Shown here in pieces: positions 7,533 through 46,506 of a stretch of DNA of 64,000 nucleotides. A program made the position numbers and the translations under genes. Location of the stretch: the NCBI RefSeq assembly GCF_034424625.1, contig NZ_CP139976.1:5332001-5396000 (forward strand), in the 5' to 3' direction. Source of the DNA: Janthinobacterium lividum (lineage in GTDB: Bacteria > Pseudomonadota > Gammaproteobacteria > Burkholderiales > Burkholderiaceae_D). The notes under the pieces were generated by a model, which saw nothing but the letters and a program-made list of their open reading frames with translations, ran no database searches and was not told where the DNA came from. The stretch's first letter is position 1, and every line of letters begins with the position of its first letter.

Positions 7533-9953
7533 ATGAGTTCAAGCACCGCCCGCTCCCAGCTTCCCGCCCTGCCCGTGAAAACCGTTATCGCCGCCAGCCT
7601 GATCGCCTGCTTCAGCCTGCCAATGCAGGCGCAAGCGCAGCAAGAGCTGCCGGCCGAAGGTGAACTGCAATCGGTGGTGGTCACCGGCACCTTCGCCAAG
7701 AACCGCCGCACCATCGATTCCGAATCGCCTATCGACATCCTCACCTCGCGCGACCTGCAAAGCACGGGTTCGGGCGAGCTGGCCACCGTGCTGGCGCGCC
7801 TGCTGCCATCGCTGAACTTTGCCCGCGCCACGGGCGCCGACGCCAGCGACGCCGTGCGTCCGGCCCAGCTGCGCGGGCTGTCGCCCGACCAGACCCTGGT
7901 ACTGGTGAACGGCAAGCGCCGCTACACCTCGGCCGTCGTCAACGTCAACGGTTCCCTGGGCCGCGGCTCGGCGCCCGTCGACCTGAACGCCATCCCGCTG
8001 GCCGCCATCGACCACGTGGAAGTGCTGCGCGATGGCGCGGCGGCCCAGTACGGTTCCGATGCGATCGCCGGCGTAATCAACATCATCCTGAAAAAAGGCG
8101 CGGCCGGCGGCGATATCGAAGTGGGCTATGGCCAGACGCAGGAACGCGACGGCAAGCAAAAATCCATCAAGGGTTCGGCCGGCTTCGCCCTCGGTGACGA
8201 CGGCTGGGTGCGCGTCTCGGCGGAAGTGGCGGAGCGCGACCCGACCAACCGCGCCGGCGCCGACTTCCGCAATCCGCTGGAACCGCGCTACGGCAAGGTC
8301 AACCAGCGCTATGGCGATCCGGAAAGCAAGCCGGCAACGATTTTCCTCAACAGCGAATACCGCATCAACGACAATATCGACTGGTATGCCTTCGGCAATT
8401 ATGGCAAGCGCGACACGTCGGCCGCCGCCACCTGGCGCACGGCCCTGATCCAGGACCCCGTCACCAAGGTCTACTCGCAGCGCACGCCGATCTATCCGGA
8501 AGGCTTCTTGCCGCTGCAAAACAGCACCCTGACGGACCAGTCCATCGTCACGGGCTTGCGCGGTGAAGCGGCCGGCTGGCGCTGGGATGCCAGCATCAAT
8601 TACGGCAGCAACAAGTTCGAACTGGACCTGGACAACACGGTCAACCAGTCGCTGGGCGCGAACAGCCCCACGCATTTCTATGCCGGCTCGCTGAAGAATG
8701 AACAGACCGTATTCAACCTGGACGCGGCGCGCGAGTTTCCCGTCTCTTACTTTACGGGTCCGCTGACTGTAGCCGTCGGCGCGGAAGCGCGGCATGAGAA
8801 ATACAGCATCGGCGCCGGCGACGCAGCGTCGTACACAGGCGGCGGCTCGCAAGGCTTTGCCGGCTTCCGCCCTGTCAACGCAGGCAGCCACTCGCGCCAC
8901 AACGAATCGATCTATGTGAATCTGGAAGCGGAAGCGACGAAGAAACTGTCGGGCGGCGTGGCCCTGCGCCATGAGCGCTACAGCGATTTCGGCAGCACCA
9001 CCTCTGCCAAGGGCTCGGCCCGCTACTCCTTCACGGACGCGCTGTCCCTGCGCGGCACCGTATCGAGCGGCTTCCGCGCGCCATCGCTGGCGCAGCAGTA
9101 CTACACCATCACCACCACCAACTTCCAGGTCATCAACGGCAACAATACGGCCATCGAGACGGGCACCTTTGCCGTCAACACGCCGCAGGCGCGCGCCTTG
9201 GGCGCACAGGACCTGAAACCGGAAAAAGCCCGCAACTACAGCCTGGGCCTGCAGTTCCAGCCTAACCGCAACTTCACCACGACGGTAGACGCCTACCGCA
9301 TCGACATCGACAACCGCATCCTGTTCTCGGCCAACCTGGCGCTGAACGACAAGCTCAAGGCCCAGCTGGCGACGCAAGGCTCGAGCGTGGGCGCGGCGCG
9401 CTACTTCACCAACGCCGTCGACACGCGCACGGAAGGCGTGGACATCGTCAGCACCTACCGCATCGACCTGCAGGACAAGGACCGCCTCGATCTCACCGTG
9501 GCCTACAACCATAACAAGAGCACGGTACAGAAAATCGCCGACAATCCAGCCATCCTGACGGCCAACAACCTGAAACTGATCGACCGCCAGAGCATCGACC
9601 GCATCACGGTGGCCTCGCCGAAGGACAAGTTCAGCCTGGCCGCCGACTACGGCTTCGGCATCTGGAATGCGCATGGCGTCGTGACGCGCTACGGCAGCTT
9701 CACCGTGCCACAGAACGATGTCAAGCTGGACCAGACGTATGACCCGCAATGGGTGCTGGACGTGTCCGGTTCCGTGAAACTGGGCAAGAACTGGCGCCTG
9801 GTGGCCGGCATCGACAACGTCACCAACCGCTACCCGGCGCAAGTGACGAGCGCGGGCAACCTGAACGTCAACGGCACCCAGCCTTACAGCATCTTCGCGC
9901 CGAACGGTTTCAACGGCCGCTACTACTACGCCAAGGCTGGCTATAGCTGGTAA
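7533..9953 (+). CDS. TonB-dependent outer-membrane receptor
   Basis: Outer-membrane beta-barrel transporter energised by TonB, 806 residues. It has a signal peptide (residues 1 to about 36, ending in MQAQAQ) and a TonB box near SVVVTG. The plug domain contains RGLSPDQTLVLVNGKRR and the block VEVLRDGAAAQYGSDAIAGV. A 22-strand barrel follows and ends in aromatic YYYAKAGYSW, a typical C-terminal targeting strand. GAAGAG lies 8 bases before the ATG at 7533, which is preferred over an in-frame TTG two codons earlier. The ligand is unknown; the plug resembles receptors in the iron/vitamin class but also those for other organic compounds. No transporter or siderophore gene is next to it. Confidence 0.92.
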   Translation: MSSSTARSQLPALPVKTVIAASLIACFSLPMQAQAQQELPAEGELQSVVVTGTFAKNRRTIDSESPIDILTSRDLQSTGSGELATVLARLLPSLNFARATGADASDAVRPAQLRGLSPDQTLVLVNGKRRYTSAVVNVNGSLGRGSAPVDLNAIPLAAIDHVEVLRDGAAAQYGSDAIAGVINIILKKGAAGGDIEVGYGQTQERDGKQKSIKGSAGFALGDDGWVRVSAEVAERDPTNRAGADFRNPLEPRYGKVNQRYGDPESKPATIFLNSEYRINDNIDWYAFGNYGKRDTSAAATWRTALIQDPVTKVYSQRTPIYPEGFLPLQNSTLTDQSIVTGLRGEAAGWRWDASINYGSNKFELDLDNTVNQSLGANSPTHFYAGSLKNEQTVFNLDAAREFPVSYFTGPLTVAVGAEARHEKYSIGAGDAASYTGGGSQGFAGFRPVNAGSHSRHNESIYVNLEAEATKKLSGGVALRHERYSDFGSTTSAKGSARYSFTDALSLRGTVSSGFRAPSLAQQYYTITTTNFQVINGNNTAIETGTFAVNTPQARALGAQDLKPEKARNYSLGLQFQPNRNFTTTVDAYRIDIDNRILFSANLALNDKLKAQLATQGSSVGAARYFTNAVDTRTEGVDIVSTYRIDLQDKDRLDLTVAYNHNKSTVQKIADNPAILTANNLKLIDRQSIDRITVASPKDKFSLAADYGFGIWNAHGVVTRYGSFTVPQNDVKLDQTYDPQWVLDVSGSVKLGKNWRLVAGIDNVTNRYPAQVTSAGNLNVNGTQPYSIFAPNGFNGRYYYAKAGYSW

Positions 9954-9970
9954 ATAGCGCTCTGCCATGC

Positions 9971-10006
9971 AAAAAGCCCGGAACGCATCGCGTTTCCGGG
10001 CTTTTT
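9971..10006. terminator. Bidirectional intrinsic terminator
   Basis: Long stem AAAAGCCCGG-AACGC / GCGTT-TCCGGGCTTTT with an A-run on one side and a T-run on the other. It sits between the convergent receptor gene and PEP-CTERM gene and can serve both. Confidence 0.92.
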
Positions 10007-41884: not shown

Positions 41885-41912
41885 CGGGCCAGCACTTTCT
41901 CACAGGAATGCT

Positions 41913-41940
41913 TTGCATTCTTTTTCAACTGATATATAAT
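41913..41940 (+). promoter_or_regulatory. Promoter of tRNA-Lys
   Basis: -35 TTGCAT (41913-41918), 16-base spacer, perfect -10 TATAAT (41935-41940), followed by a GC-rich GCGGCC discriminator, typical of stable RNA promoters. Confidence 0.8.
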
Positions 41941-41952
41941 GCGGCCTCTTTC

Positions 41953-42028
41953 GGGTCGTTAGCTCAGCTGGTAGAGCAGCGGACTTTTAATCCGTTGGTC
42001 GCAGGTTCGAATCCCGCACGGCCTACCA
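41953..42028 (+). tRNA. tRNA-Lys (anticodon UUU)
   Basis: A 76-base cloverleaf with encoded CCA (42026-42028). The acceptor stem GGGTCGT pairs with ACGGCCT, with two G-T pairs. D-arm AGCTCAGCTGGTAGAGC, anticodon loop CTTTTAA with TTT at 41986-41988, and T-arm GCAGGTTCGAATCCCGC are all present. Sequence is close to the E. coli lysyl tRNA. Confidence 0.97.
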
Positions 42029-42048
42029 CGAATACAGCAGTACAGATC

Positions 42049-42082
42049 AGGGCTACCCGCTTCGGCGCGTAGCCCTTTTTTG
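42049..42082 (+). terminator. Intrinsic terminator after tRNA-Lys
   Basis: Stem GGGCTAC-C-CGC / GCG-C-GTAGCCC around a TTCG tetraloop, then a six-T run. Confidence 0.9.
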
Positions 42083-42101
42083 CGCTTGCCGCCTGCCCAG
42101 C

Positions 42102-43418
42102 TTAGCGCTTGCCGCTGGCATGCTCCAATGCAGCCACATCGGCCCGCCCGTCGGCCAGCCGCCCGCACACGAATGCCGACACATAGTTTTGGGTCGCCTG
42201 TCCATTCACGCCGACGCCGCGCTGCGGAAGGAAGTTACCGACCGGATAGGCACTGGCGATCTTGAAGAGCATTTCCCGCTCGAGCGGATACGCCTGGTCG
42301 TAGCGCATGATATTGCGATGCACGTTGTAGCCATTGTTATTGTTCATGTCTTGCGACAGGGGCTTGACCATCACGCGCCCCACGCCCAACTCGCTGGCCC
42401 GCATGGCAATGTCGCGCGCCAGCGACGTGGCAAAGGCATAGCGCGCCTGCTCGCCATCGCCTTCACACCAGAAGATGTCGAGCGTGACGCCATCGTAGCG
42501 ATCGCGCACCATCAGGCGCTTGCGGCTGACGGTCGCCGCCACGTTGCGCGGCGCGGCTGACATGCCGGCCTTGAGCGGATTGAACTTCAGGGCGGAGAAG
42601 GCAGGGCCAACGTTGGTTTCGGCATAAGTGTCGCGCTTGCCGCTGTCGTACAGGCGCCAGACGCGGATGCCGACGGCGGCCATGATATCGCCTATGTCGC
42701 CGCCTTTCGACAGTTCGTCGGCCAACACCAGCGCATAGGCGCTATGGCCCTTGCCGTCATTGTCGGGCGTGCGGTCGCCGGCGGTGGTGGCGTACTGGAT
42801 CAGCGTGTTCGGCCCGGTGCGGATCGACACGGCCTCGCTATAGGTGACCTTTTCGTCGACCGGCACGTCGCGGCATTTGTCCAATGCCACGACGAGTGCC
42901 ACATTCTTATCATCCGGCAATTTCTGCAGCATCTCGGCGACGTTGTTGGCGTTCTTTTGCAGCAGTTTGAATTGCTCCAGGTCGCCGTCATTCTTGAATG
43001 CGGCATGATCCATCCGAAACAGCACCGGCACCGTGAACGCGTGACCGTGGTACTGCATGCCATGGCCGGAATAAAAGAGGAAGACAATCGATCCCCTGGG
43101 CAAATCCGACAGGCTGCTGGCAAAGTCGGCGACACGGGCGTTGAAGGTCGCCTGGTCCACATTGCAATAGTCATGGATCTCGAACCCGAATTTGGCCAGC
43201 TGGCTCTTGACCAGATCCGAATCGCTGCAGGGATTTTTGAGGTCGGCAATGTAATCGCCCGATGGAGTGGGATCGAATTTTCCGTTCTGATCGTAATCCC
43301 AGTTGCCGATCAATAAGGCGACACGCTTGGGCGGGCCAGATTGTGCCTGGCAGGGGAAGGCCAGCAGCACGGACACGGGGATGCAGAGCAGGGCTAGGAT
43401 GCGTTTGAGCGGATGCAC
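42102..43418 (-). CDS. Exported caspase-like (C14/metacaspase) protease
   Basis: Protease-like protein of 438 residues. A signal peptide (1-26, ending LLAFPCQAQ) sends it to the periplasm. The p20-like caspase domain (31 to about 260) has RVALLIGNWDYD, the catalytic His in LFYSGHGMQ (His119) and the catalytic Cys in VALDKCRDVP (Cys182). Residues 290-430 form a second domain starting RKRLMVRDRYDGVTLDIFWCEGD, which I do not recognise; it faintly resembles LytR_C/SPOR-like domains. The start is GTG at 43418, set by AGGAG 8 bases before. It lies 42 bases downstream of the muramidase gene on the same strand. Confidence 0.85.
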   Translation of the reverse strand: MHPLKRILALLCIPVSVLLAFPCQAQSGPPKRVALLIGNWDYDQNGKFDPTPSGDYIADLKNPCSDSDLVKSQLAKFGFEIHDYCNVDQATFNARVADFASSLSDLPRGSIVFLFYSGHGMQYHGHAFTVPVLFRMDHAAFKNDGDLEQFKLLQKNANNVAEMLQKLPDDKNVALVVALDKCRDVPVDEKVTYSEAVSIRTGPNTLIQYATTAGDRTPDNDGKGHSAYALVLADELSKGGDIGDIMAAVGIRVWRLYDSGKRDTYAETNVGPAFSALKFNPLKAGMSAAPRNVAATVSRKRLMVRDRYDGVTLDIFWCEGDGEQARYAFATSLARDIAMRASELGVGRVMVKPLSQDMNNNNGYNVHRNIMRYDQAYPLEREMLFKIASAYPVGNFLPQRGVGVNGQATQNYVSAFVCGRLADGRADVAALEHASGKR

Positions 43419-43460
43419 GATATAACTCCTCGGTTGGCCAGGGTGGATGCCGGGGCGGAC

Positions 43461-44300
43461 CTAAGCGCTTTTCAGGCCACGCTCGAACAGCGCGGCCTCA
43501 AGCTCGCGCCGCAGCACGAGGCCGCGCATATTCGGCACGCCTGTCCACAGCCGCGCCATGGACCGCAACTCGGCGGGGATGGCATCGTAGGCTTCGTTGA
43601 CCATGTGCTGGCGGATCATGCGCATCTCGCGATAGCGCGGGCCATCCTTGTGGAAGCTGGCACCGCGGTTGTAGACCAGCGACACGAGCGCACCCAGGCT
43701 GTCATCGGACAGCTTGTCCGTGTTGGGAAGGCGCGCCAGCGTCAGCGCCACGTAGCGCGGCAACAGGCGCGTACGAAACTGCTGATCGGCGATGTCCCAC
43801 GGAACCGCTACGTCGCGTACCTGCGCCAAGGCATCGCGGGCCTCTTCCGCCCTCAAACCACAGACCTTGCGTAATGTTGCCAGTTCGCCGTCAGCGAGCC
43901 GGGCTTCCCAGTCTTCGTTGAGCCAGTCGGCCGTGACGTATCCCAAATCATAGCCAATGCCTATCGTGACGCCCGACTCGCCGGCGGGCCAGATCGGCTG
44001 CTGGAACTTCGCCTCGTAGCGCGCGCGGTCGGTCACTTCGAAGGTGGTAATGAGCGTGATGGCGGCTTCCGAGATTGCCCGCGAAGACAAGGGAGTACGC
44101 GGCGCAATGGCCCGCGATTCGTACTGCTCGCCGAAGCCTTCGCGACTAGTGCGCGTCGCATCAAGCAGCGACGGATCGTTGATGGCTTGCCGCAGCAAAG
44201 TATCGAATGCATCCGACTGCGCCAGCACCTTGCCGCCAGCGAGCAGGCCCAAGGCTCCCAGCGCGACCGCCGCGCCAACAAACTCTCGTCTGGAATGCAT
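43461..44300 (-). CDS. Tat-exported GH24-type muramidase
   Basis: Lysozyme-like protein of 279 residues. A twin-arginine signal (SRREFVGAAVALGALGLLAG, residues 3-22) precedes a linker, then a T4-lysozyme-type domain. ITTFEVTDRARYE holds the candidate catalytic Glu88. SGVTIGIGYDLGY matches the GH24 TIGIGH block. DSLGALVSLVYNRG corresponds to the ALVSFxFNxG helix, and MRGLVLRRELEAALF to the RRxxE end. It would cleave peptidoglycan glycan strands in the periplasm. Start ATG 44300 follows GAGGAG. Use of the Tat path and pairing with a caspase gene are unusual. No holin or phage genes accompany it. Confidence 0.8.
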   Translation of the reverse strand: MHSRREFVGAAVALGALGLLAGGKVLAQSDAFDTLLRQAINDPSLLDATRTSREGFGEQYESRAIAPRTPLSSRAISEAAITLITTFEVTDRARYEAKFQQPIWPAGESGVTIGIGYDLGYVTADWLNEDWEARLADGELATLRKVCGLRAEEARDALAQVRDVAVPWDIADQQFRTRLLPRYVALTLARLPNTDKLSDDSLGALVSLVYNRGASFHKDGPRYREMRMIRQHMVNEAYDAIPAELRSMARLWTGVPNMRGLVLRRELEAALFERGLKSA

Positions 44301-44535
44301 CGCATGCTCTCCTCTAGTGTCCGGCAAACATGGCGACACGCCACTTGCAGGCAAAACTATGCGGGATGGCGCGCAGCGCGCCATTGATGCACTTCAATAT
44401 ACAGATATTTATTATTTGAAAATACACAGTTTATTGCACTTGTGCTTGCTTTGTCAGGCCATGCTTTTTTGCTGAAGCGTAACAGCGCATGGCAGCTATA
44501 CTGGTGCATCCCATGCCGATCCGGAAAGATACACC

Positions 44536-44952
44536 GTGAAACTTGCCGCCCTGCTGTCCCCCCATCTCCTGCTGTGCGCACTGCCCCTGCTTGCCCAGGC
44601 GCAGGCGCAAACGCCCATCGTGCTCGACGGCCAGTACAGCGCGCGCACGGACGAGATGAGCCTGCAGATCATCGGCAACCGCGTCTGCTTCGCGCCCGAC
44701 AAGGCGCAGTGGGGCCGCCTGCCCCGCCCTGCCGCCACGCACGATGCGTGGTTCTGTTTTTCCAACGATGGCGAGGCGCGCCGGCTGCTGCGCGTGCCCG
44801 CGCGCCAGGCCGACAATTGCGGCTGGCAAGCGCGTGCGCGCATCGTCATCGACACCTATCAACCGTATGTGGAGCAAGGCGATGGCAACGACATGGCGCG
44901 CCTGGCGTCGGTGGTGAAGGTGGCGCAGCCGAACGCCATCGCCTGCGAGTAA
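44536..44952 (+). CDS. Small secreted protein of unknown function
   Basis: Protein of 138 residues with a signal peptide (1-24, ending LLAQAQA). The mature part has four Cys (in NRVCFAP, DAWFCFS, ADNCGWQ and AIACE), probably two disulfides, and looks like a small beta-sandwich: IVLDGQYSARTDEMSLQIIGNRVCF. I do not recognise a family. Start is GTG at 44536 after GGAAAG. Its stop directly abuts the stop of the convergent next gene with no base between. Confidence 0.7.
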   Translation: MKLAALLSPHLLLCALPLLAQAQAQTPIVLDGQYSARTDEMSLQIIGNRVCFAPDKAQWGRLPRPAATHDAWFCFSNDGEARRLLRVPARQADNCGWQARARIVIDTYQPYVEQGDGNDMARLASVVKVAQPNAIACE

Positions 44953-45459: not shown

Positions 45460-46506
45460 TCAATTCTCCAGCAAGTCGTGCAGTTGCACATTGCGCCGCG
45501 ACGTCAGCAGGCCGGCCCAACTGTCGCTCGTCACGAATGGATAACGCACGGCGCCAAAGTTCATCCACGCATCGCGGTATGCCAGCCACAGGCGCTGGGT
45601 GGCGCGGATGCCATCCTTGCCCACGGCGCCCGCATGGGTTTGCGCCGGCTTCTTCATGAGCTTGCCGTAGATGGCGTTGAGTTCCTTGTCGAGCGCCGCC
45701 GCCTGTTCCCTGGACATGCTGGTTGGCAGCTTGCCCGCTTCGTACTCGCGCAAATCGTGCGCCAGCAGATCAAGCTCGGCCGTGCGGGCGGCGATGCTCA
45801 GGGCGGCGCGGGCCGTGCCGCTCAAATCCGTTTCATAGTCCGCGCGCGCATCGGCAAACTTGCTTGCCGCCGCCTGCAGTTTTTGCAGCGACGCTTGCGC
45901 CGCGGCAGGCATGCTTGCGCTGACTTTACCTGTCGCCTGCGTGCGCACGCGTTGTTTCTGGCGCGCATCGATGGCGCTGCACACGCCCATCATGTAGCCG
46001 CTGGTGATGTCGTCGCACAAATCGATCATGCCGCGTCCGCTGGCATTGATCTTCTGCAAGTGTTCGATGCGCCCTTGCATCTCGGCTGGCGCCGCATCGA
46101 TGCTGCACGCGTACTTCAGCGCCAGCAACGGGTCTTTCTGCACGCCCTGCCCATTCTGGTACAGCATCATCAGGACAGCGCTGTTCTGCGTGGCCATGGC
46201 GCAATGGCGCGCAGGACGCCAGTCCGCCGGCTTGGGTGAGGACATACTCTTGGTATCGTAATACAGGTCTGTTGCCTGGCACTGCTGCAGGGATGCCACG
46301 GCGGACGGCGCCGGCAAGTCGGCAGGCGGCGGCGCCGCATCCTTGACCTTCAGGCAACCCGCATACCAGGCCGTGCTTTCCGCGTGACCCACGCCCATGG
46401 CGCTGGTATTCGGGTACGGTGCGGGCGCCGCGGCAAAAACCGGGGCAGCCAGCAGGCAGCTCGCGCCCAGCAATATCGTTTTCAATAAGGGTAGACTAAT
46501 TTTCAT
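45460..46506 (-). CDS. Periplasmic LprI-like (DUF1311) protein with helical N-terminal region
   Basis: Exported protein of 348 residues with a signal peptide (1-25, ending LAAPVFA). The N-terminal part has Sel1-like helices with AVLMMLYQNGQGVQKDPLLALKYACSI. The C-terminal part (about 245-348) matches the DUF1311/LprI domain: ALDKELNAIYGKLMK, then GIRATQRLWLAYRDAWMNFGAVRYP. In Mycobacterium tuberculosis, LprI inhibits lysozyme; many other members have no known role. It lies 1.2 kb from the GH24 muramidase gene on the same strand. Confidence 0.78.
   Translation of the reverse strand: MKISLPLLKTILLGASCLLAAPVFAAAPAPYPNTSAMGVGHAESTAWYAGCLKVKDAAPPPADLPAPSAVASLQQCQATDLYYDTKSMSSPKPADWRPARHCAMATQNSAVLMMLYQNGQGVQKDPLLALKYACSIDAAPAEMQGRIEHLQKINASGRGMIDLCDDITSGYMMGVCSAIDARQKQRVRTQATGKVSASMPAAAQASLQKLQAAASKFADARADYETDLSGTARAALSIAARTAELDLLAHDLREYEAGKLPTSMSREQAAALDKELNAIYGKLMKKPAQTHAGAVGKDGIRATQRLWLAYRDAWMNFGAVRYPFVTSDSWAGLLTSRRNVQLHDLLEN

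Follow-up and report, generated by a model that had tools for sequence, protein, structure and literature searches.

Do the exported-type muramidase and the exported-type caspase encoded side by side in Janthinobacterium lividum act together, and if so, what does the protease do to the muramidase? The question arises from a stretch of 64,000 nucleotides of contig NZ_CP139976.1 (assembly GCF_034424625.1, positions 5,332,001 to 5,396,000), referred to here as the window. An earlier note on this DNA had proposed that the two genes form a unit in which the protease matures, activates or disposes of the muramidase. The answer that we favour, tentatively, is that they may encode a two-gene, protease-gated cell-wall lysis unit acting outside the inner membrane. 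Both genes were confirmed, with intact catalytic residues, at the following positions:

43461..44300, minus strand: muramidase-like gene (279 amino acids), with a twin-arginine translocation (Tat) signal at about 1-28, a helical segment at about 31-50, a linker at 57-76 and a lysozyme domain at 76-279
43419..43460, minus strand: intergenic gap of 42 bases, with AGGAG before the GTG start of the caspase gene
42102..43418, minus strand: MALT1-like caspase gene (438 amino acids), with a hydrophobic signal, a caspase domain at about 28-287 and a C-terminal domain, here named WCEG, at about 302-420

The caspase and the muramidase

The caspase scores 64.7 bits against PF00656, above the curated cut-off of 21.4, and its best fold match is MALT1, with which it shares the active-site cysteine in a D-x-C-R motif. 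The catalytic dyad His119/Cys182 is present in 41 of 41 aligned caspase rows. Three acidic residues of the S1 type (Asp66 in 40/41 rows, Asp180 in 41/41 and Asp219 in 40/41) align with residues 365, 462 and 500 of MALT1, and these three acids are credited with the arginine preference of MALT1 in the available text of its description (PMC4357240). The caspase is predicted to be of the paracaspase type, with a pocket suited to cutting after Arg or Lys.

The GH24 label that the earlier note had given to the muramidase holds for the fold, since the structure model is that of a lysozyme, but not at the level of the family profile: the score against PF00959 (GH24) is 19.6 bits, below the curated cut-off of 22.3, and in structure it is matched best by pesticin, in its lysozyme domain. 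The score against PF16754 (pesticin C-terminal) is 18.5 bits, below the curated cut-off of 25.8, and a precomputed PF00959 assignment is found on 11 of the 120 muramidase relatives listed. Glu88, Thr112 and Asp118 are invariant in 42/42 aligned sequences and are spaced nearly as in pesticin (178, 201 and 207, taken from entry titles); conservation of the catalytic residues in homologues, the lack of which the earlier note would have counted against its proposal, is thus found for both proteins. A two-helix segment (31-50) is predicted between the twin-arginine signal and the linker. Judged from its sequence and model, the muramidase is an endolysin-type lysozyme domain (76-279) behind a Tat-type signal and a linker. 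Viral relatives mostly consist of a bare lysozyme domain: among 80 IMG/VR loci kept out of 346, the match begins no earlier than model position 60 in 76, and in 51 the first Met lies at most 16 residues from position 76. Annotated phages gave two lysozyme matches of about 42% identity. Plasmids gave caspase relatives below 60% identity only, and the sole place covering at least 80% of the query is 26% identical.

Co-location of the two genes in other bacteria

Genome sampling was too sparse to serve as the main test of pairing (one scan of genome contigs returned 1 locus), and equal contig sizes together with one DNA locus were used instead. For 22 of 40 caspases of the subfamily, the longest contig is identical in base count to that of a muramidase relative among the 166 listed (drawn from the best 120 of 891 and the best 120 of 930), which denotes co-location rather than proven adjacency; these copies and that of the DNA locus are called linked below. 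The same test on 39 of 40 other caspase hits gave no match, and shifting the caspase contig sizes by 1-50 bases either way gave 0.43 matches on average. Six of the 22 linked caspases lie on contigs of 2841-3790 bases that are mostly filled by the two genes, and linked caspases reach down to 36% identity with the window caspase. The linked pairs with a named host come from Achromobacter anxifer, Lysobacter sp. Hz 25 and Lysobacter sp. yr284. Two Paraburkholderia caspases also belong to the subfamily, their linkage to a muramidase not being among the demonstrated cases.

Adjacency is proven in two places, the window and Lysobacter sp. yr284 (locus L006), where the muramidase gene (9135-9992) and the caspase gene (P0134, 9989-11434) overlap by 4 bases. 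The earlier note had named rarity of this neighbourhood in other genomes as evidence against its proposal; the genes are neighbours elsewhere, and the conserved neighbourhood supports the view that they form a unit.

Two observations stand beside these pairs. At a contig size of 4388 bases there are two muramidases and two caspases (P0083, P0111, P0148, P0150), approximately the room needed for two tandem units. Next to the Lysobacter unit lies a gene resembling a zeta-toxin-type kinase (L006:7280-8899), the C-terminal tail of which we take to be like that of Xanthomonadaceae type IV secretion effectors.

A basic motif in the muramidase linker

The linker contains a short motif at the following position:

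44097..44123, minus strand: muramidase codons for residues 60-68 (YESRAIAPR), the linker motif and proposed caspase cleavage region

The motif itself reads S-R63-A-I-A-P-R68, and Arg63 lies within a segment (57-64) with a predicted local distance difference test score (pLDDT) below 50 in the structure model. The pattern [STN][RK]A-x-[AT]P was found in 24/24 linked muramidases, two of them near-identical, and the shorter form [RK]A-x-[AT]P within the preceding 45 residues in 1 of the 80 viral relatives. Because this conserved, basic and flexible site joins the pro-segment to the catalytic domain, beside a protease with a predicted Arg/Lys pocket, proteolytic release would be the simplest reading of the arrangement.

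The C-terminal WCEG domain

The C-terminal domain of the caspase was named here after a WCEG motif within residues 302-420. Its coding part is located as follows:

42159..42494, minus strand: WCEG-coding part of the caspase gene (residues 309-420)

The predicted order of its elements is beta-alpha-beta-beta-alpha-beta, and cysteines 318 and 418 are invariant (41/41). No consistent Pfam match was obtained among 13 members: LPD25 was matched by one of them with an expectation value (E) of 0.00092 and two other families once each with E > 0.05, which we take as chance. The best hit among PDB sequences had an E of 0.28. The predicted order of strands and helices resembles that of SPOR domains. An assignment to SPOR was not supported, as PF05036 matched none of the 13 members (E <= 10, HMMER filters on) and hhalign gave a probability of 0.3%, with only three SPOR sequences in the comparison.

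At E <= 1e-4 and with the own genome counted, WCEG was matched in three of the 369 genomes searched at class level and in one of the 398 at phylum level, and WCEG occurs in other proteins of four genomes (G417, G1017, G432 and G950). In a member of the genus Lysobacter (G417, L043:2539-7179) it forms part of a trio consisting, in this order, of a caspase, an 861-amino-acid HEAT-repeat protein ending in WCEG and a PF00959 gene. The caspase of this trio (DHCYSG motif, signal recognized by eye) overlaps the HEAT-WCEG gene by 4 bases, and the lysozyme gene matches PF00959 at E 6.2e-33 and carries a lipoprotein-type signal, again by eye. Among the PADLOC models, this caspase fits the caspase model (E 1.1e-13) and the HEAT protein a HEAT/ARM model (E 1.5e-19). 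In G1017 (L116:4615-6218), a gene for a PG_binding_1/TIGR02594 protein precedes one for a membrane-anchored protein that has WCEG at its end; TIGR02594 proteins are wall hydrolases. The gene order there calls to mind an endolysin accompanied by an accessory lysis protein. Caspase, WCEG and wall enzymes thus recur in company, though in few loci. No match to the caspase subfamily or to WCEG was found in IMG/VR viral contigs, including a search with one WCEG protein by itself, nor was any match to the profiles of either found near the 80 viral lysozyme loci at E <= 1e-3, a search that a distant caspase could escape.

Insertion beside tRNA genes

The unit lies in a region that varies within the host genus and extends from a tRNA-Lys gene to a gene at 44536:

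41953..42028, plus strand: tRNA-Lys(ttt), with its 3' end pointing to the end of the caspase gene across 73 bases; the site at which the unit is inserted
42044..44565, no strand, borders approximate: inserted DNA missing from 22 of 29 congener loci read

A search of 40 congener genomes returned 30 loci, one of which was the own genome. The unit was found in none of the remaining 29, which comprise 22 empty sites, six loci whose read stretch gives no match to the far flank and one in which the match resumes further on. At an empty site the match runs to 42040-42046 and continues from 44566-44614 within about 105-160 bases, the bases between the flanks having no match. The inserted stretch holds only the muramidase and caspase genes, with no third gene and, by eye, no integrase gene; its GC content (0.56-0.66) is close to that of the flanks, and no direct or inverted words of at least 10 bases are shared between 41900-42120 and 44280-44600.

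In Lysobacter sp. yr284, 3 bases separate the unit from the 3' end of a tRNA-Ser gene. The DNA on the tRNA side of this site is present in 20/20 genomes of the genus, and the unit, compared over 1.5 kb on its side, matches 0 of the 19 others. The unit thus occupies two different tRNA-flanking variable sites.

The search across Oxalobacteraceae that the earlier note had suggested gave a full-length caspase match only in the genome of the window among 392 family genomes, and the same held for 399 order genomes (E <= 1e-12), with at most four candidates scored per genome in both cases. The unit is therefore rare and patchy. A full-length caspase of the subfamily was present in 1 of 20 Lysobacter-genus genomes, and a muramidase match (E <= 0.001) in 0 of 36 congeners and 24 other order genomes.

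As a side observation, the 3' end of tRNA-Lys is a cargo hotspot in the genus, with cargo that varies among congeners. Named by eye, the cargo at the six loci without a far-flank match comprises, among other things, a set of type I restriction-modification genes (L108), metallophosphoesterases (L106, L107, L108 and L110) and a lipoprotein (L104 and L105).

Proposed mechanism

From the conserved pairing, the catalytic residues, the aligned acidic S1-type pocket, the basic linker motif that all linked copies share and the insertion beside tRNA genes, we infer a series of steps that runs from export through triggering and cleavage to activation and the lysis of a cell. Both proteins would be exported, as judged from their signals, the muramidase via Tat in folded form. 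The N-terminal pro-segment may keep the muramidase low in activity until it is cut. WCEG might dock the caspase at the cell wall or sense the wall; that the caspase would be held or triggered there is suggested because WCEG proteins keep company with wall enzymes. Once triggered, the caspase would cut the flexible linker, most likely after Arg63 (or after Arg68 or Arg74) given the predicted pocket and the motif. The freed domain (76-279), according to its fold and catalytic residues, would then cut glycan strands, so that the cell holding it is lysed or opened. The dying cell might be the producer itself, as in abortive defence, or a neighbour. In a bolder version, which we regard as doubtful, the pair would be a mobile and self-contained cassette for suicide or lysis: an exported paracaspase would set free a pro-muramidase exported by Tat, and the caspase-triggered lysis would proceed from the periplasm against the cell wall instead of against DNA or membrane. 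WCEG would then be a new domain associated with the wall, connecting caspases with several classes of wall enzyme.

Several results weigh against protease-gated lysis. Of 131 relatives without demonstrated linkage, 39 likewise carry the strict motif [STN][RK]A-x-[AT]P, a count made after removal of 12 near-copies of the window and one in which some of the remainder may be linked on unlisted contigs. Among these relatives, 34/92 with an Arg-Arg or Lys-Arg N-terminus and 5/39 without it carry the strict motif, and 41/92 and 8/39, respectively, the relaxed one. Some of the motif-bearing relatives are close kin of linked muramidases. That the motif is exclusive to linked copies is ruled out by its presence in exported relatives not shown to be linked; it therefore marks a part of the exported subfamily, which includes all linked copies seen, and not pairing alone. 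The N-terminal segment is likewise present in signal-less relatives of about 250 amino acids that lack the linker motif, and it therefore did not arise for the caspase. As to the pairing, 18 of the 40 caspases share no contig size with the listed muramidase relatives; six of these lie on contigs too short for both genes and P0134 is linked by DNA, which leaves 11. The distance matrices of muramidase and caspase correlate with r 0.91 over 21 pairs (0 of 5000 permutations as high), leaving out P0005 and P0121, which are near-identical to the window, and both pairs on the 4388-base contig, a correlation that may merely mirror shared descent. WCEG has few further contexts, two of which, with membrane-anchored WCEG proteins in G432 (L044) and G950 (L115, near a contig end), have no recognized adjoining wall enzyme. 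The two-gene form shows no visible sensor. Neither protein strongly matches the PADLOC models of anti-phage defence: the window caspase matched the generic caspase model only, and weakly (E 0.0009), and the muramidase gave no match.

The suggestion of the earlier note that the protease matures or activates the muramidase gains from the intact active sites, the predicted Arg/Lys pocket and the conserved basic motif, on which maturation and disposal both remain candidates. Disposal is the main rival of activation. The caspase would then be an off-switch that degrades or trims the muramidase, or shields the wall through WCEG, and so spares the producer. Co-inheritance would suit a toxin and its guard as well as an enzyme and its activator, and WCEG proteins also adjoin a GH24 lysozyme and a peptidoglycan-binding protein. 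However, the conserved basic motif belongs to a flexible linker and not to the lysozyme domain, and a single cut there would set the domain free instead of destroying it. Proteins that guard against toxins tend to be small and to evolve fast; unlike these, the caspase has 42 positions, spread over both domains, that are invariant in 41/41 rows. We consider an off-switch unlikely.

A bacteriolytic weapon, in which the muramidase is exported by Tat and released against other bacteria while the caspase serves as a general maturation protease, as in the predation of Lysobacter, is in our view also improbable. The hosts listed include Lysobacter, Paraburkholderia, Achromobacter and Janthinobacterium, all bacteria of soil and water, and the best fold match is the lysozyme domain of a bacteriocin. 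Against this, the muramidase model consists of the N-terminal segment and the lysozyme domain only, with no further domain able to bind a receptor, and nothing was found that points to release across the outer membrane. The caspase is, moreover, present in so few Lysobacter-genus genomes (1 of 20) that it is not a core tool of predation.

That the pair remodels the wall for growth, secretion-system assembly or stress rather than for death we hold to be quite improbable. Some GH24-type enzymes have been domesticated by bacteria, and the fold matches include the muramidase domain of SpmX; the pair is nevertheless patchy and borne on an insertion that carries nothing else, with no muramidase in the congener and order genomes above and no full-length caspase in the 391 other family genomes (four candidates scored per genome). 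That two cargo genes merely share a tRNA hotspot, which does carry other cargo in other congeners, and are adjacent by chance is largely refuted, and very improbable, given a pairing seen on many contigs with caspases down to 36% identity, overlapping genes beside a different tRNA in Lysobacter and the variant trio with another type of lysozyme.

Relation to known systems

Protease-gated lysis, the reading that we prefer, has a close likeness in the caspase-nuclease (canu) loci (KaeCanABC) described in 2025, in which a MALT1-like caspase and CanB activate a gated nuclease (PMC12799240). According to the available part of that paper, a MALT1-like caspase there lies near a hydrolase with disordered gating segments and switches this pro-enzyme on, and the loci occur in defence islands and near transposases (PMC12799240). 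In the same text, the target is DNA, the nuclease has a metallo-beta-lactamase fold, a third gene (CanB) takes part and the caspase contains an immunoglobulin-like fold; the window pair differs in the export-type signals on both proteins, a lysozyme-fold partner, peptidoglycan as the likely target, the WCEG domain and the lack of a third gene. Activation is demonstrated for canu (PMC12799240), whereas for the window pair it is a prediction. MALT1 itself carries death and immunoglobulin domains (PMC4357240, available text); unlike MALT1, the window caspase comes from a bacterium, bears an export-type signal and has WCEG as its last domain.

MALT1 is a signalling protein of eukaryotes. In bacterial gasdermin systems, a caspase-like protease cuts a lytic effector and kills the cell. 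Gasdermin forms pores in membranes and has no export signal, in contrast to the effector of the window, which is a lysozyme-fold enzyme with such a signal. The lysozyme fold is shared with pesticin and the type VI secretion system effector VgrG3cp. There, the lysozyme is joined to a receptor-binding or VgrG part and serves to kill other cells, and we know of no protease partner for either. On a best reading, by analogy, the window pair may be the cell-wall counterpart of canu and caspase-gasdermin pairs.

The statement of the earlier note that no system with this pairing has been described stands as far as the titles and abstract starts of open-licence papers go, among which neither a caspase-muramidase pair nor a caspase gate on a wall enzyme was found. 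A related theme is in print all the same: a 2012 survey reported a metacaspase together with an N-acetylmuramoyl-L-alanine amidase in four fusions and one Geobacter operon (PMC3501461), which likewise joins a caspase-type protease with a peptidoglycan hydrolase. In the available text of that survey the partner is an amidase and not a muramidase, neither a conserved pair nor a linker motif nor a route of export is described, and the word 'lysozyme' occurs 0 times (PMC3501461).

If activation holds true, caspases would be seen to govern lytic effectors not only among nucleases and gasdermins but also at the cell wall, beyond the inner membrane. Substrates of bacterial caspases are known in few cases only, canu being one of them. 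Here, a likely substrate is encoded next door with a marked linker, which makes for a simple two-protein test of substrate and mechanism.

Neighbouring sequences and further caspases

Upstream of the muramidase gene there is one sigma-70-like match (44457-44428, 9/12), with four such matches in the region against 1.0 in shuffled sequences. About 1 kb from the muramidase gene, at 45460-46506, lies a gene for a protein with an LprI (lysozyme inhibitor) domain. As a third partner it was ruled out, because the congeners read carry it beside sites without the unit. The genome of the window contains three more caspase-domain matches (contig C1, 518762-519427, 3746525-3747199 and 2634596-2634937), one of which sits in an open frame of 1841 amino acids. 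Of these, only 518762-519427 fits the subfamily profile (E 9.3e-12, four candidates scored).
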